A stretch of 64,000 nt of DNA. It comes from Dehalococcoidales bacterium (lineage in GTDB: Bacteria > Chloroflexota > Dehalococcoidia > Dehalococcoidales > UBA5760). The stretch lies in contig JAQUQE010000001.1 of assembly GCA_028716225.1 (NCBI GenBank), positions 157,407 to 221,406 of the forward strand, given 5' to 3'. A program made the position numbers and the translations under genes. Positions 30,833-37,966 of the stretch are shown here, piece after piece (position 1 is the stretch's first letter; each line of letters starts with the position of its first letter). The notes under the pieces were generated by a model, which saw only the letters and a list, made by a program, of their open reading frames with translations, was not told where the DNA came from and ran no database searches.

Positions 30833-31105
30833 ATGGAACGGCGAAGGTCAAGTATCGAGGTAATAGCCGATATGCTCCGTCTCGGTGAAGCCGGCAAGAC
30901 GGAAATAATGTACAGCGCCAACATGAGCTACTTCCAGCTGCAGAAATACCTCAAATTCCTGCTGGAGCTGAAGCTCATCGACAGGGTAATGATCGGCAAC
31001 CCGGTGGTCACCTACAGGGTGACCAGGAAGGGATTAAAGCTGCTGAGGCATATCGATAACATCCTGGAGATACTCGAGTTCAAGGAAAAGGATGACTTCC
31101 AGTGA
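30833..31105 (+). CDS. winged helix-turn-helix regulator (archaeal type)
   Basis: A 90-residue DNA-binding protein. RRRSSIEVIADMLRLGEAGKTEIMYSANMSYFQLQKYLKFLLELKLIDR is a winged-helix recognition unit of the kind common in archaea (HTH_45-like), and YRVTRKGLKLLRHI completes the wing and last helix. No sensor domain. AGGGTAAGC lies before the ATG. It is followed after 22 bases by the ribbon-helix-helix gene and both end at one strong terminator, so they form a two-gene unit. The target is unknown; the flanking pilus and GH3 loci are candidates. Confidence 0.8.
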   Translation: MERRRSSIEVIADMLRLGEAGKTEIMYSANMSYFQLQKYLKFLLELKLIDRVMIGNPVVTYRVTRKGLKLLRHIDNILEILEFKEKDDFQ

Positions 31106-31127: not shown

Positions 31128-31499
31128 ATGTCTGAAAAAAGAATGCTGATACTGCCGGCGGAGCTCGTTGATAAGATCGACGAAAACCGGGGCGACGTGG
31201 GCCGGGCGGAATTTATCGAGTTCCTCATCAGCGGCCAACTGAAGGAGGAAAGCAAGGAAGCCAGGCGCACCGGCAAAGCGGAAAGCTATGTCACCAAAGA
31301 GGAGCTGCGCTCCATAGAGCAGGACATCAAGAAGCTGCTGCGGAGTTTCATCGACTTCTTCGTCAATTACGGACTGGAGATCGGCAAACAATCACCCCGG
31401 GCCGAGTTTGAAGAGCTTATCGGCAAGCTGCAGGGACTGGAAAAGGACCTGAACTCCGATAACGATAACGAGAAGAAGGCGACCATTAAGTGGAAGTAG
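31128..31499 (+). CDS. ribbon-helix-helix-like protein with coiled-coil tail
   Basis: A 123-residue protein. The N-terminal MLILPAELVDKIDENRGDVGRAEFIEFLISGQL matches a CopG/MetJ-type ribbon-helix-helix: a beta strand, then two helices. The rest is mostly charged helix (EELRSIEQDIKKLLRSFIDFFVNYG and EFEELIGKLQGLEKDL), probably for oligomerisation. AAGGAG precedes the ATG. It lies directly after the winged-helix gene and ahead of a terminator. No toxin-like partner is present, so it is more likely a regulator than an antitoxin. Function not recognised. Confidence 0.6.
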   Translation: MSEKRMLILPAELVDKIDENRGDVGRAEFIEFLISGQLKEESKEARRTGKAESYVTKEELRSIEQDIKKLLRSFIDFFVNYGLEIGKQSPRAEFEELIGKLQGLEKDLNSDNDNEKKATIKWK

Positions 31500-31573: not shown

Positions 31574-31607
31574 ATTGCTATCTTTATTGCCGCCGGGGGA
31601 TAGAACA

Positions 31608-31621
31608 TTGTTCTAGAACAA
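31608..31621. promoter_or_regulatory. 14-base perfect palindrome upstream of the GH3 fusion locus
   Basis: TTGTTCTAGAACAA at 31608-31621 is perfectly symmetric, and AGAACATTGTTCT immediately overlaps it on the left. It lies between the terminator and the start codon at 31677, where an operator would be expected. Candidate binding site for one of the nearby regulators. Confidence 0.45.
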
Positions 31622-31676
31622 GATACCTTCCTATATCCGCGATTCTCTGCAATAGTTATTGGCGGAGGAAGGTATT

Positions 31677-33977
31677 ATGCTCTATATCATCCTGGGAATA
31701 GTCGGTTTTACGGTGATACACCTCTTCGACCTGGTCTCCCTGAAAAGGGTCCCCCGGGCCAAACCTGTCGTCTGGGCAGCGGGCAGCGGCCTGCTGGTCT
31801 ACTCGCTGGTGATGATATGTCTGGCCCCGGAGAAGCTGGTATTGCCGGCGGGGCTGACCTGGCTGGGCTGGGGAATGCTCGCACTGTCCCTGCCCCTGTT
31901 AATACAATCGCTTTTCGTCGGCCTCCCCTTCCGCAAAACATACCTCACCACCGGCGTCGGCGACCGGCTGATAACAACCGGAATGTACTCTCTTACCCGC
32001 CACCCGGGGGTAATCTGGTTCACCATCCTGATGCTGGCCCTGATACCGGTGGCAGGATCGAGACTGCTGCTGCTGGCCGCACCGGTTTTCATTGCGCTGG
32101 ACATCCTGCTGGTGACCATTCAGGACAAATTCATCTTCGGCAGGATGTTCGACGAATACGAAAGCTACCGGCGGCAGACGCCGATGCTGCTCCCAACTCG
32201 GAGCAGCCTGCACGCTTTCCTGGATTCCCTGCGCAAAAATAAAAATAAATCAATAAGCAATCACGGAGGTTACACAATGAGCAAAGAAGCAGAACTTATC
32301 GTTCAGGGTAAGAACGAAGAGCTATGGCAGCGGTGCTGCGGCTTCATCGACCTGAGCCTGGCGGAATGCATGAGCATCCAGCGGCGGCTGCTGCTGGAGC
32401 AGATAGGACTGCTGAAAAAGTGCAAGCTGGGCAGGAGCATCATGCGCCGGGCCAACCCCGAGACCGTGGATGAGTTCCGCCAGCAGGTACCGCTGACCAC
32501 CTATTCCGATTATGAGCCGTTTCTCCTCACCCGGAATGAGAGCGCCCTGCCGGCGAAACCGCTTTTCTGGCAGCACACTTCGGGCAGGTCCGGTGAATAC
32601 CCCTTCAAGTGGGCCCCCGTCACCACCCGGCAGTTCGAGGAAATACAGGCGCTGCTGTTCGGCTGTCTGGCCTTCTCCAGCTGCAAGCAAAAGGGCGAAA
32701 TAGCCTACCGCAGAAAGGACAAGTTTCTCTATGCGCTCGCCCCGCCGCCCTACACCACCGGCTCGCTGATACACTATGCCCCCAACGAGGTCTTTGACTT
32801 CCTGCCGCCGGTCAAGGCAGTTGAGGGAATGTCCTTCGAGGACCGGATACGTCTCGGTTTCCAGATGGCCCTATCGGATGGGGTAGACCTCTTCTTCGCC
32901 TTATCCAGCGTAATAGTAGCCCTCGGCGACCGCTTCAGCCAGGGAAACGGCGACCTTGATCCAAGAATGCTGATGGGCAAACCGAAGACCCTGCTCAGGC
33001 TGCTCAAGGGCGTTGCGAAAAGCAAGCTGGCCCGCCGGCCCCTGCTGCCCCGGGATGTCTGGAAATTGAAAGGCTTGATCGGAACCGGTTCCGACAGCTC
33101 CGTATTCCGGGAAAAAATTAAGGAGATGTGGGGCAGATATCCCCTGGACGTCTACGGAGGTACCGAGGGCATTATTATGGCGACCCAGACCTGGGACTAT
33201 CAGGGATTGAGCTTTATCCCCCACACCAACTTCTTCGAGTTTATTCCCGAGGAAGAGAGCCTGAAAGCTAAAGCCGATCCCCTCTACCAGCCGAAGACGG
33301 TGCTGCTGGATGAGGTCGAGGCAGGGGAGAACTACGAGCTGGTAATTACCAGCTTCCACGGCGGTCCCTTTGTCAGATATAAGCTGGGTGATATGATCCG
33401 TATCACCGCACTGCGTAACGAACGGCTCGATATCGACATTCCCCAGATGGAATATTACGCCCGCATTGATAATATGATCGACATCGCCGGATTTACCCGG
33501 TTAACGGAAAGGGTTATCTCGCAGGCGATAGAGAATACCGGTCTGGACTACGAGGACTGGACAGTACGCAAGGAACTGAGAGCTAAACCGGTACTGCACC
33601 TCTACCTGGAGCTTAAGGAGAACGGACACGTTACCGAGGAAGAGGTTGCCGTCTCCGTCCACGAGAAGCTCAAAGAACTGGACGCCCCCTACGCCGACCT
33701 AGAAACGTTCATCGGTCTGAGACCCCTGGAGGTCACCCTGCTACCCGAGAATACCTTCAGAAGCTATATGATCCGGCAGCAGGCTGCCGGTGCCGACCTG
33801 GCACACCTCAAGCCGCCGCACGTCAACCTCTCCGACAGCATCATAGACTCCCTGATCAACGGGTCTCTGGCCGAGCCGGTAGCACAGGAAGAGGACTACG
33901 AAGAGACGGTTAAACGCTACCGGATGAACCGCAGGAGACGCCAGCGCCAGCCTGCGACAACCAAAACAAACAAATGA
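31677..33977 (+). CDS. isoprenylcysteine-methyltransferase-like membrane domain fused to GH3-family adenylating enzyme
   Basis: One reading frame of 766 residues. Residues 1-200 are a four- or five-helix membrane domain of the ICMT/phospholipid-methyltransferase type (TTGMYSLTRHPGVIWF carries the cofactor-binding RHP motif; FGRMFDEYESYRRQTPML is the C-terminal signature). From residue 201 a GH3-family acyl-adenylate domain follows: HTSGRSGEYPFKW (phosphate loop), DVYGGTEGI, and GPFVRYKLGDMIRI. GH3 enzymes join carboxylic acids to amino acids or similar acceptors through an acyl-AMP. The start at ATG 31677 has GGAGGAAGG upstream; a TTG at 31659 would encode that site itself. A second full ribosome site before Met201 raises the possibility of two products. 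A fabF-type gene follows. Confidence 0.8.
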   Translation: MLYIILGIVGFTVIHLFDLVSLKRVPRAKPVVWAAGSGLLVYSLVMICLAPEKLVLPAGLTWLGWGMLALSLPLLIQSLFVGLPFRKTYLTTGVGDRLITTGMYSLTRHPGVIWFTILMLALIPVAGSRLLLLAAPVFIALDILLVTIQDKFIFGRMFDEYESYRRQTPMLLPTRSSLHAFLDSLRKNKNKSISNHGGYTMSKEAELIVQGKNEELWQRCCGFIDLSLAECMSIQRRLLLEQIGLLKKCKLGRSIMRRANPETVDEFRQQVPLTTYSDYEPFLLTRNESALPAKPLFWQHTSGRSGEYPFKWAPVTTRQFEEIQALLFGCLAFSSCKQKGEIAYRRKDKFLYALAPPPYTTGSLIHYAPNEVFDFLPPVKAVEGMSFEDRIRLGFQMALSDGVDLFFALSSVIVALGDRFSQGNGDLDPRMLMGKPKTLLRLLKGVAKSKLARRPLLPRDVWKLKGLIGTGSDSSVFREKIKEMWGRYPLDVYGGTEGIIMATQTWDYQGLSFIPHTNFFEFIPEEESLKAKADPLYQPKTVLLDEVEAGENYELVITSFHGGPFVRYKLGDMIRITALRNERLDIDIPQMEYYARIDNMIDIAGFTRLTERVISQAIENTGLDYEDWTVRKELRAKPVLHLYLELKENGHVTEEEVAVSVHEKLKELDAPYADLETFIGLRPLEVTLLPENTFRSYMIRQQAAGADLAHLKPPHVNLSDSIIDSLINGSLAEPVAQEEDYEETVKRYRMNRRRRQRQPATTKTNK
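32265..32279 (+). promoter_or_regulatory. internal ribosome-binding site and ATG at the GH3 domain boundary
   Basis: GGAGGT at 32265-32270 with a 6-base gap to ATG 32277, in frame with the upstream methyltransferase-like domain. The preceding linker is AAT/AAA-rich and contains TAA in another frame. A separate 566-residue GH3 protein (32277-33977) can therefore be made, which is a normal length for that family. Confidence 0.7.
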
Positions 33978-34047: not shown

Positions 34048-35313
34048 ATGTCTGATAATAACGGCGCCAATAACAATAAGCGGGTAGTGATTACCGGACT
34101 GGGAATAATCTGCCCGGTGGGACTGACTGTTTCTGAAGCCTGGTCCGGTCTCGTCTCGGGAAAGTCAGGGATTGATTACATTTCCAGTTTTGACACCACC
34201 GCCTTTAAGACTCGATACGCCGCCGAAGTGAAGGGCTTCGACCCGCACGCCTACATCGGCCCGAAAGAGGCCGGGCGTATGGACCGCTTCACCCAGTTTG
34301 CCGTGGTCGCCAGCCTTCAAGCAGCCGAAGCGGCCCGTCTGCGGCTGGAAAACGGGGACGCCGAGGAGACCGGCGTCATCATCGGCGACAGCATCTGCGG
34401 TCTGCTTCAGATCTGTACCCAGTTCAAGGTGCTGGCTGAATCGGGACCGGACCGGGTCAGCCCGGTCCTTGCCCCGACAATGTCGGGCGATGCTGCCCCG
34501 GTACAGGTATCCCTGACGCTGGGAACAAGGGGAATCAACTACTCTCCCTCTTCGGCATGCTCCAGCGGCAGCGATGCCATCGGTCAGGCATTTCAGCTAA
34601 TCCGGAGGGGAGACGCCCGCGTCATGATAGCCGGCGGTGCCGAAGCCCCGATAATGCCTATCATACTAGCCGCCTTCAACTCCTGCCGGGCGCTATCGAC
34701 CAAGAATAACGGAGTAGAAACATCCTGCTGCCCGTTCGACGCCGAGCGGGACGGTTTTGTCCTCGGCGAAGGTGCCGCCATTATGATTCTGGAAGAGGAG
34801 AGCTATGCCCGGAATCGGGGAGCCCCCATTCTAGCTGAAATCATCGGCTACAGCGCCACCAGCGACGCCTTTCACCTCACTCAACCTTCACCTGATGGAG
34901 AAGGAGCCGCCAGAGCAATGAGGATGGCGATGAAGGATGCCGCCGTTACCCCCGCCGATATCGACTATATCAATGCCCACGGCACGGCAACGCTGCTTAA
35001 CGACCGGGCGGAAACCCGCGCCATGAAAAGCGTACTGGGCGAGTACGCCTCCCGTATACCCGTCTCGGGCAGCAAATCAATGACCGGCCATCTGCTGGGG
35101 GCATCAGGCAGTGTCGAAGCCGTGATCTGCGTGCTGGCTATCAATCACGGGGTGATACCACCGACGATAAATCTCACCCACCCCGACCCCGAGTGCGACC
35201 TGGACTATGTACCCAACGAGGCACGGCAGATGAACGTCAAAACCGCCGTATCCAACTCCTTCGGCTTCGGCGGGCATAACTCGACACTTATCTTTCGCCG
35301 CTATGACGGATAA
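34048..35313 (+). CDS. beta-ketoacyl-ACP synthase II-type enzyme (FabF family)
   Basis: Condensing enzyme that extends acyl chains with malonyl-ACP. It has the thiolase fold and the complete Cys-His-His triad: Cys171 in SSACSSGSDAIG, His311 in NAHGTAT and His348 in KSMTGHLLGASGSVEA. The N-terminal VVITGLGIICPVG and C-terminal SNSFGFGGHNSTLIF are typical. 421 residues. No acyl carrier protein, malonyl transferase or ketoreductase gene is adjacent. So it is not part of a normal fab operon; beside the GH3 gene it may make or extend the acyl chain that GH3 activates. GAGAGGTAA precedes the ATG. Confidence 0.88.
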   Translation: MSDNNGANNNKRVVITGLGIICPVGLTVSEAWSGLVSGKSGIDYISSFDTTAFKTRYAAEVKGFDPHAYIGPKEAGRMDRFTQFAVVASLQAAEAARLRLENGDAEETGVIIGDSICGLLQICTQFKVLAESGPDRVSPVLAPTMSGDAAPVQVSLTLGTRGINYSPSSACSSGSDAIGQAFQLIRRGDARVMIAGGAEAPIMPIILAAFNSCRALSTKNNGVETSCCPFDAERDGFVLGEGAAIMILEEESYARNRGAPILAEIIGYSATSDAFHLTQPSPDGEGAARAMRMAMKDAAVTPADIDYINAHGTATLLNDRAETRAMKSVLGEYASRIPVSGSKSMTGHLLGASGSVEAVICVLAINHGVIPPTINLTHPDPECDLDYVPNEARQMNVKTAVSNSFGFGGHNSTLIFRRYDG

Positions 35314-35397: not shown

Positions 35398-35458
35398 CTC
35401 TACTGATAACGGTAAGGATTGTCCCGCCTTCTTCTTGGTATCGGGGAGAGACTTGTTG

Positions 35459-37966
35459 ATGAATATCTGGACGGCAATACCGCTGGTAAGCTTTTCGGTG
35501 TTTACCGTTCTGGCCGTGCTTACCCTGCGGCAGCAGAGGACACGGGTAAACCGGACCTTCGCCTGGTTCCTTATCGCCTCCGGCACCTGGAGCTTTACCT
35601 CCTTTATGCTGCACCTGAACGTCAATCCACAGCTTGCCCTCCTCTGGAACGAGCTGCTGGTCGCCGCACTGCTGTGGACAGTAGTCAGCTACTACCACTT
35701 CGTCAGGGCCTATAACAACAGACCCAGCGGAATAGGAACCTACCTCGGCTATGCCGCCGTAGTTACCGTTCTGCTGCTTTCCTTAAACGGATACATAATC
35801 AAGTACGCCTACGTCAGCAACGGCATCCTGTACCATGACCTCGGTACTTCACTCTATGTTATAGGCGGTATCAGCGCCGCCTTCCTGATTTTCTCCATGC
35901 TGATGCTGACCCAGCGCTACCGCAGCTCTCTGGACCCCACCGATCGCAACCGGACAATGTACCTAATAATAGGCTCGGCAATTGTAATAAGCTCAAGCTA
36001 TATCACCAACCTGACGCCAGCCATAGCCGGCTTGTCCATCGACCACATCGGCAACCTTACCAACGCTTCGATTATCACCTACGCTATTATGAGGTACCAG
36101 CTACTTAACATAAGGTTTGTCGCCAAGAGAACGCTGGGCTATGCTCTGGCAGCCGCCTGCCTGGGCGGAATATACGTCGGTGCGATATTACTATGGCAGA
36201 GCGTCCTGCCAGCTCAGACGACCTACAACATTGCTCTGCGTACCACCGCGCTGGTCCTCCTGCTGGCTCTGATGGCACGACCGCTGATGCACAGAATCGA
36301 AAACAGACTGGACCATTTGTTCCACCGGAAAAATTATGAGCCGCGTCGGGCGCTGCTCGAATTCAGCAAGAGAATGAGCAGCGTCATTAACCTGGACGAA
36401 CTCGCCGAGGAAATGCTAAGCACAATAACCAAAGCACTGCATCTGACACAAGCGAAACTGATGATACAAGACCTCGGCAGCGGTGATTTCACGACGCAGT
36501 TCACCTATCCCAAAGCGGAGGGGGAACCGGACGGCGACATCAGTTTTAACGTCGACAATCCCGTCGTTACCTGGCTGCATAAAGAGAATCAGCCGCTTAA
36601 CCTGGAGCCGATCGACAATATGCCCAAGTTTAAGGGCTTATGGGAAGCAGAAAAACAGCAGATAACAGCATCAAATCTGGGAATGCTGTGTCCCATTAAA
36701 ACCCAGGGCCGTCTGGTCGGCATACTGGCCCTGGGCAAAAAGCGATCCGGCTCCATCTACTCTCACGAAGACCTGGAACTGGCAATGAATATGGCCAGCC
36801 AGGCCGGTGCTATTATCAATAATGCCCAGCTTTATTCACGAGCTATGGTGATGGCAAATACCGACGGACTGACCGAGCTATACAATCACCGCCAGTTTCA
36901 TGAACGCGTCGACCAGGAGATCGCCCGCGGGTCGCGTTTCGGAACCACCTTCTCCCTGATAATGCTGGACGTGGACCTTTTCAAGGCCTATAACGACATT
37001 CACGGGCACCTGGCCGGTGACGAAATCCTGCGTAGAATTGCGCTGGCCATCAGGACATCCATTCGAAGCCTGGACACCGCTTTCCGCTACGGAGGAGAAG
37101 AGTTTGCCATCATCTTACCCGAGGCTCAGCTTGCCGACGCCTACAAGGTGGCAGAAAGAATCCGCAAGACAATAGCCTCGAAAACGAGCTCCCGGGCCAC
37201 CCCGATAACGACCAGCCTCGGAATTGCCAGCTGGCCGGTTGACGGCGTAACCAAAACGGAAATCATAACTCGCGCCGATGCAGCGCTGTACCGAGCCAAG
37301 CAAACAGGTAGAAACCGAACCTGCCTTTCTTCAGAGGTGGCTAAAACGGAAACGTTGCCGGCGGATGCGGAGCATGAGACGCAATCAAGAGCCCTGAGCA
37401 TAATATACGCTCTGGCGGCTACCGTCGATGCCAAGGACCACTACACCTACGGACACTCGAAAAAGGTGAGCGACTACGCAGTAGCCCTGGCAGAAGCACT
37501 GGGACTATCCAAAGAGGTAATCGACACTATCCGTGCTGCCGGCCTGCTGCACGATGTGGGCAAAATTGCCGTCCCGGACTCCACACTTAATAAGAGCGGG
37601 CCTCTGAATAATGATGAATGGGAATTAATTCAGGCGCATCCCAAGCTCGGCATCGAGATACTGAGACACGTCATCGACCTGGTCAACTGTATTCCGATTA
37701 TCCTGCATCATCACGAACGCTATGACGGCTCCGGCTATCCCAACGGCCTAAAGGGGGACAGCATTCCCCTGGAATCCCGCATCCTGGCAATTGCCGATGC
37801 TTTCGACGCCATTACCTCACCGAGGCCATACCGCAAGCAGCTATCCGTACCGGAAGCACTCAGCGAATTGAAGCACTGCGCCGGAACCCAATTCGATGCC
37901 AAACTGGTAGACGTTTTCTGCAAGGTGATAGAGTCAACTCCGTCAACAAGACTGGAGATAGGATGA
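35459..37966 (+). CDS. membrane GAF-GGDEF-HD-GYP cyclic-di-GMP protein
   Basis: An 835-residue signalling protein. The first 215 residues form six to seven membrane helices of the histidine-kinase 7TM-like sensor type. A GAF domain follows at about 290-450. The diguanylate cyclase domain has an intact GGEEF at 545-549, and its product-inhibition site RSLD lies five residues before it. The HD-GYP phosphodiesterase has LLHDVGKIAVPD with His698-Asp699 and HHHERYDGSGYPNGLKG. Both synthesis and breakdown of c-di-GMP therefore look possible. The start is ATG 35459, preceded by GGGGAGAG; frames further up would translate that site. It shares an operon with pilT, which suggests control of pilus retraction by c-di-GMP. 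Confidence 0.92.
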   Translation: MNIWTAIPLVSFSVFTVLAVLTLRQQRTRVNRTFAWFLIASGTWSFTSFMLHLNVNPQLALLWNELLVAALLWTVVSYYHFVRAYNNRPSGIGTYLGYAAVVTVLLLSLNGYIIKYAYVSNGILYHDLGTSLYVIGGISAAFLIFSMLMLTQRYRSSLDPTDRNRTMYLIIGSAIVISSSYITNLTPAIAGLSIDHIGNLTNASIITYAIMRYQLLNIRFVAKRTLGYALAAACLGGIYVGAILLWQSVLPAQTTYNIALRTTALVLLLALMARPLMHRIENRLDHLFHRKNYEPRRALLEFSKRMSSVINLDELAEEMLSTITKALHLTQAKLMIQDLGSGDFTTQFTYPKAEGEPDGDISFNVDNPVVTWLHKENQPLNLEPIDNMPKFKGLWEAEKQQITASNLGMLCPIKTQGRLVGILALGKKRSGSIYSHEDLELAMNMASQAGAIINNAQLYSRAMVMANTDGLTELYNHRQFHERVDQEIARGSRFGTTFSLIMLDVDLFKAYNDIHGHLAGDEILRRIALAIRTSIRSLDTAFRYGGEEFAIILPEAQLADAYKVAERIRKTIASKTSSRATPITTSLGIASWPVDGVTKTEIITRADAALYRAKQTGRNRTCLSSEVAKTETLPADAEHETQSRALSIIYALAATVDAKDHYTYGHSKKVSDYAVALAEALGLSKEVIDTIRAAGLLHDVGKIAVPDSTLNKSGPLNNDEWELIQAHPKLGIEILRHVIDLVNCIPIILHHHERYDGSGYPNGLKGDSIPLESRILAIADAFDAITSPRPYRKQLSVPEALSELKHCAGTQFDAKLVDVFCKVIESTPSTRLEIG

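Follow-up and report, generated by a model that had tools for sequence, protein, structure and literature searches.

The 64,000-nucleotide stretch of DNA analysed here (the window) comes from contig C1 of an assembly in 156 contigs. Named relatives, of which UBA5760 and Sandtown STD1_192 are the nearest, put the source genome in the Dehalococcoidales (Chloroflexota). On the forward strand of the window, an open reading frame of 766 codons extends from ATG 31677 to a TGA at 33975-33977 and joins a membrane methyltransferase domain to a GH3-family enzyme. A second ATG, at 32277, is in frame with the first, and the sequence GGAGGT (32265-32270) lies six bases 5' of it; the frame, the ribosome site and the inner start are all as an earlier reading, made from the sequence only, had described them. 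The features of the locus are as follows.

30833-31105, + strand: winged-helix protein (HTH_45 / Sso10a family by Pfam and NCBIfam), upstream; position conserved in 10 of 12 relatives examined.
31128-31499, + strand: small protein, ribbon-helix-helix-like by eye, upstream; position also conserved in 10 of 12 relatives examined.
31601-31656, + strand: putative promoter/operator block of the operon; the same block, with near-fixed spacing, precedes the first operon gene in most relatives.
31664-31672, + strand: ribosome site of the methyltransferase (or fusion) start ATG 31677, GGAGGAAGG; predicted anti-SD pairing -9.5 kcal/mol.
31677-32264, + strand: membrane methyltransferase domain of the PEMT/ICMT superfamily, assigned by profile matches and invariant residues; a separate gene in 41 of the 52 relatives with both genes.
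32187-32276, + strand: spacer or linker of 90 nt, from the last conserved methyltransferase motif (TPM) to the GH3 start; a homologous stretch is present in unfused relatives.
32254-32256, + strand: TAA, one base out of frame; it aligns with the in-frame methyltransferase stop of the relative G003 (loci L001, L005 and L006 aligned with L007, and the reading frames).
32265-32270, + strand: internal Shine-Dalgarno sequence of the GH3 cistron, GGAGGT; predicted anti-SD pairing -10.2 kcal/mol, kept in 11 of 11 fused loci.
32277-33977, + strand: predicted GH3-family acyl-adenylating amide synthetase with its own start, ATG 32277, assigned by Pfam, PDB matches and the start of free homologues.
34048-35313, + strand: FabF-type 3-oxoacyl-ACP synthase II, directly downstream (NCBIfam TIGR03150, above cut-off).
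35435-37966, + strand: 7TM-GAF-GGDEF-HD cyclic-di-GMP protein (Pfam), downstream, with an uncertain start codon; near GH3 in most relatives examined.

The small protein at 31128-31499 has no Pfam or NCBIfam match, and an Rfam search of the region gave nothing credible. The source assembly measures 2.64 Mb, compared with 0.8-1.3 Mb for the rest of the genomes placed in its genus, and one of these (0.9 Mb, 98% complete) is without the methyltransferase-GH3 locus.

The GH3 half (residues 201-766) matches PF03321 (GH3), PF23571 and PF23572 (GH3_M and GH3_C), all above the gathering score. It carries the three GH3 nucleotide-binding motifs in order, TSGRSGEYPFK (32577-32609), YGGTE (33153-33167) and GGPFVRYKLGD (33360-33392), which correspond to the general forms SSGTSxG.., YGSSE and ..YRxGD and are largely conserved among homologues. 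Domains and motifs thus agree with the GH3-family enzyme that had been proposed from residue 201. The best PDB matches of this half, by sequence and by fold, are plant GH3 enzymes, and modelling of the full-length structure (27 rows, mean pLDDT 67) confirms the GH3 fold and nothing else. JAR1, GH3.1 and GH3.12 have the fold and the motifs in common with the window's GH3, but identity in the structure match is about 16-18% and the substrates surely differ; none of the matched plant entries is joined to a methyltransferase domain, unlike the frame in the window.

The N-terminal half (residues 1-196) is a membrane domain with four or five long helices. Among 31 homologues it gives weak profile matches to PEMT in 31 (E<=0.05), to ICMT in 28 and to DUF1295 in 25. 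The window's own domain falls under the curated cut-offs (PEMT 21.0 of 25, ICMT 16.6 of 24), and three fused relatives pass that for PEMT. Residues R108, H109 and P110 (RHP), Y161, Y164, T168, P169, M170 and P173 are invariant in the 31 homologues, and the RHP motif and the C-terminal Tyr/Pro motif are common to PEMT, ICMT and DUF1295 methyltransferases. A PDB sequence search with the domain found no match, and its structure model (mean pLDDT 65) is too poor to place, with no PDB match at E<=0.001. The weak but uniform profile evidence suggests a member of the PEMT/ICMT superfamily that is closer to PEMT than to ICMT. The earlier label of an ICMT-like domain thus holds at the level of the superfamily, and PEMT is the better single label.

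The same gene order is found across the order: winged-helix protein, small ribbon-helix-helix-like protein, methyltransferase, GH3, FabF in some, and the 7TM-GAF-GGDEF-HD protein. This includes G016, which we take to be a Dehalococcoides-like genome and in which FabF is missing from the operon. The window's genome encodes a second GH3 protein (38% identity; contig C4, 140091-141680), directly behind a gene for a soluble class I SAM methyltransferase in the same frame, the TGA of one abutting the ATG of the other. GH3 thus stands next to a methyltransferase at two places in this genome, and the two methyltransferases differ in fold.

OlsH of Singulisphaera acidiphila, the GH3 protein of bacteria that is best characterised, is a GH3-like lyso-ornithine lipid synthetase that makes N-acyl ornithine from a fatty acid and ornithine, and its gene adjoins that of the ornithine-lipid N-methyltransferase OlsG (PMC12493201). 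OlsH is an ATP-dependent acyl-amide synthetase, as the window's GH3 is predicted to be, and the two have in common the GH3 fold, the three nucleotide-binding motifs and a methyltransferase encoded alongside. OlsH differs in being a free protein of another subfamily, since the GH3 half of the fused frame scores 21.8 bits against a cut-off of 620 with the OlsH equivalog model NF052613 (NCBIfam), which marks a related fold and not a member; OlsG, too, is not of the PEMT/ICMT membrane type. By motif, the essential serine of OlsH, S115 (PMC12493201), would correspond to the S of TSG in the window's GH3. As the simplest guess, the operon may tentatively be assigned to the synthesis and methylation of an N-acyl amino-acid type lipid, with the GH3 step first and methylation second, though this is rather less than an even prospect. 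Given the weak similarity to OlsH, ornithine as the substrate is a guess.

The putative promoter/operator block upstream of the operon consists in the window of the palindrome TAGAACATTGTTCTAG (31601-31616), CTTCC (31627-31631) and TGCAATAGT (31648-31656). Its layout across the Dehalococcoidia is TAGAACATTGTTCTAG, 10 nt, CTTCC, about 16 nt and TGNCATAGT; the palindrome is present in 63 of 79 loci and the full block in 45 (L024, L026, L028, L031, L061 and others), whether the first gene is the methyltransferase or GH3. The near-rigid spacing suggests an activator site, an unusual -35 element and an extended -10 element. As the window's genome has a single copy of the palindrome, the protein that reads it may act on this operon only, and the winged-helix or the ribbon-helix-helix-like neighbour is a candidate for that role. 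LexA was considered because of the GAAC..GTTC look of the palindrome and was set aside, as a single genomic occurrence does not fit an SOS regulon.

The CTTCC region (31623-31631) is also complementary to the stretch that holds the ribosome site of the first gene (31667-31675; ATACCTTCC / GGAAGGTAT), and the same is seen in L011, L023, L031, L061 and L070. Pairing averages -13.9 kcal/mol between partners from the same locus and -11.4 kcal/mol between partners shuffled among loci, a difference reached in 0 of 5000 shuffles with kinship ignored. The complementarity could form an RNA hairpin that hides the Shine-Dalgarno sequence, or it could be an inverted repeat in the DNA; the hairpin reading conflicts with CTTCC as a -35 element. 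In L028, L029 and L052, from the Dehalococcoides-like and related genomes, the putative -10 element (TGCCATATT, TGTCATAGT) lies 6 nt before the methyltransferase ATG and there is no Shine-Dalgarno sequence, so that the start looks as it would for a leaderless mRNA.

A search of genomes for the domain pair, as the earlier reading had proposed, found both the joined and the separate form. It took in 156 genomes from the order, with a sampling of the wider class and phylum, and gave 52 loci, one per genome, in which a methyltransferase gene lies directly upstream of GH3. The two genes are separate in 33 of these, overlapping in eight (mostly as ATGA) and fused in frame in 11. In the Dehalococcoidia, the usual arrangement is a conserved operon in which the methyltransferase and GH3 genes stand side by side. 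GH3 does not always have this neighbour: in 34 more loci, including that of the paralogue in the window's genome, no methyltransferase gene is recognisable directly upstream. Homologous free GH3 genes start at the residue matching Met-201 and have a ribosome site of the same kind, and the homologue of the linker in unfused relatives is the end of the first gene together with an intergenic leader. This identifies ATG 32277 as the ancestral gene start and the linker as a former intergenic leader, as had been suspected when the linker was first described as resembling an untranslated leader.

Fusions occur in families f1, f2, f4 (two genera), f16, f17 and f28. On a quick GH3 tree of 81 rows, in which L020 is a long branch, the fused state needs seven changes, at least five of them forced by well-supported branches, so fusion is recurrent. 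The fusion and its inner start are real, recurrent features of these genomes. In G009 (L022/L082), the fused frame is preceded neither by the N-terminal half of the methyltransferase nor by the palindromic block, and the GH3 part and its ribosome site are intact; this could be a decayed fusion or an assembly fault. A literature search limited to one collection found nothing relevant on the domain pair or on GH3 in Dehalococcoides. To our knowledge, neither the methyltransferase-GH3 pair nor its repeated merging has been described before.

The merger in the window's genus is recent. In G003, the closest relative without the fusion (88-90% protein identity), a TAA stands in frame, and two independently assembled genomes at 96-97% identity, G007 and G008, have the fusion in common with the window, so it is not the case that the close relatives all have two genes with a stop between them. 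The linker of the window is 6 nt longer than in G007 and G008 and its frame is still open. Stops are found in the other two frames only, at 32240 and 32246 (offset 2) and at 32254 (offset 1). The last of these is the old TAA, still in place at 32254-32256 and one base off the frame, which means that the frames were joined by small indels and not by substitution of the stop codon, although the exact placement of the indels in the linker alignment is ambiguous. Fusion by plain loss of the stop is therefore rejected, and of the recent stop loss postulated earlier, the recency is borne out and the mechanism is replaced by a shift of the TAA out of frame.

The inner ribosome site is present in every fused locus. 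In 11 of 11 fused loci, predicted anti-SD pairing before the GH3 start falls between -8.9 and -13.2 kcal/mol; the remaining 223 in-frame ATGs of these frames have a median of -2.2 kcal/mol (Mann-Whitney p=1.1e-8). Pairing at the GH3 start does not differ significantly between fused and separate genes (p=0.055). The GH3 site is stronger than that of the methyltransferase in all nine fused loci where both starts are comparable, and is favoured across 45 loci with both starts (Wilcoxon p=6e-8). The signal has thus been conserved through five to seven independent origins of the fusion. In the pair G047/G009, silent differences affect 55% of the codons for identical residues and the linker has diverged, but both genomes have the core GGAGGGACGTC. 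In G073 and G054 of genus g17, the core is AAGGAG and GGGAGG, respectively, and most of the six codons before the GH3 start differ in amino acid while the ribosome site is kept, so the site rather than the peptide seems to be conserved. Among the close species of the window trio, suppression of synonymous change at the inner start was not significant (0 changes at 13 codons, P=0.13-0.24). Taken from sequence comparison, the conservation argues that initiation at the GH3 start is still in use.

These observations are probably best explained by a two-cistron unit that was merged by indels and has kept GH3 initiation, so that it makes free GH3 and some fusion protein, and we hold this account with reasonable confidence. 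The methyltransferase cistron would have lost its stop through small indels in an unconstrained spacer and now read in frame into GH3, and the GH3 cistron would have kept its whole start region, with GGAGGT, the 6-nt spacer and the ATG. Ribosomes starting at 31677 would make a membrane-anchored methyltransferase-GH3 protein, and those starting at 32277 a free GH3 protein, which probably predominates, given its stronger ribosome site. A dual product from the fused locus is likely. The sequence-only reading had offered either a fusion or both products; each is right in part, and the inner site in all 11 fused loci lends more support to both products. Mergers would come and go in the Dehalococcoidales and be at least tolerated, probably because both enzymes act on one membrane substrate.

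A neutral reading ranks nearly as good as this account, and is plausible to a degree just short of even. It holds that free GH3 and methyltransferase activity are what matter, and that the fused protein is a tolerated read-on product that does nothing in its own right; with an unconstrained spacer, drift would land in frame one time in three, and mergers would appear and vanish accordingly. Apart from three or four outliers, all loci, fused or not, have 70-98 nt between the last methyltransferase motif and the GH3 start. Spacer length modulo 3 across the 52 loci is uniform (17/16/19, p=0.87), as drift predicts, with no sign that the fused frame is favoured. That the ribosome sites are as strong as in separate genes, and that G009 has kept its GH3 start without the N-terminal half of the methyltransferase, is also in keeping with this reading. 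Less readily accommodated is that the spacer is open past the GH3 start in 11 of 17 in-frame loci but in only 8 of 35 out-of-frame loci (Fisher p=0.005, kinship ignored). This is as expected if merging in frame is tolerated more readily than overrunning out of frame, and is not evidence that fusion is favoured. The neutral reading also has to contend with a fused frame that has persisted in one pair and one genus saturated or nearly so at synonymous sites, and with the two indels within fused clades, which are of 6 and 3 nt.

The fusion with its inner start may instead have been selected, the two starts serving to divide one enzyme between a membrane-anchored form coupled to the methyltransferase and a free form, with this dual arrangement arising by convergence at least five times, but we consider this rather unlikely. 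The codon-position pattern of the linker is coding-like, with few second-position changes, in the G047/G009 pair and the window trio and not in genus g17; as the pattern is mixed among clades and the numbers are small, no selection on the fused frame is claimed from it.

It is improbable that the long protein alone is made and that the inner ribosome site is a relic yet to decay. The fusion in the window's genus is young enough for such a relic, with a sister at 88-90% identity still unfused, but the older fusions (G047/G009, G073/G054 and G048) have sites that are equally strong or stronger despite many changed codons around them. Sequences resembling the Shine-Dalgarno are generally depleted in the coding regions of most bacteria (PMC5100845), so a relic site should decay. 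The least credible explanation, to which we give hardly any weight, is a base missed in the A-rich spacer by sequencing or assembly: altering a single base within AAAAATAAAAATAAATC would bring back a stop, both other frames holding a TAA within 32240-32256, but the independently assembled UBA5760 and Sandtown STD1_192 also have an open frame, with a different linker and the 6-nt difference in length, so that three separately assembled genomes agree, and fused frames are found in other families too, including the single-contig genome G035.

The merging of an operon pair into one frame with an inner start has precedents in principle. Inner in-frame translation in Cas8b/Cas11b has been shown experimentally to yield the inner product (PMC11899642), and, as would be the case in the window, a start within the one frame there should set free the C-terminal part as its own protein. 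Cas11b, however, belongs to the larger protein's own complex, whereas the inner product in the window would be a whole ancestral gene and the fusion is recent and recurrent. Fused integron cassettes also retain translation signals (PMC4670013), adjacent genes having been joined by loss of their boundary while the ribosome site remains, as in the window; the cassettes fuse by loss of a recombination site and the genes of the window by indels in an operon spacer.

As one operon pair is separate, overlapping and fused among close species, these genomes form a natural series in which the passage from two genes to one protein can be traced, together with what becomes of the inner ribosome site. The locus also places an uncharacterised membrane methyltransferase alongside a predicted GH3 acyl-amide synthetase in a set of organisms that probably includes Dehalococcoides, and points to a possible amino-lipid pathway in them.
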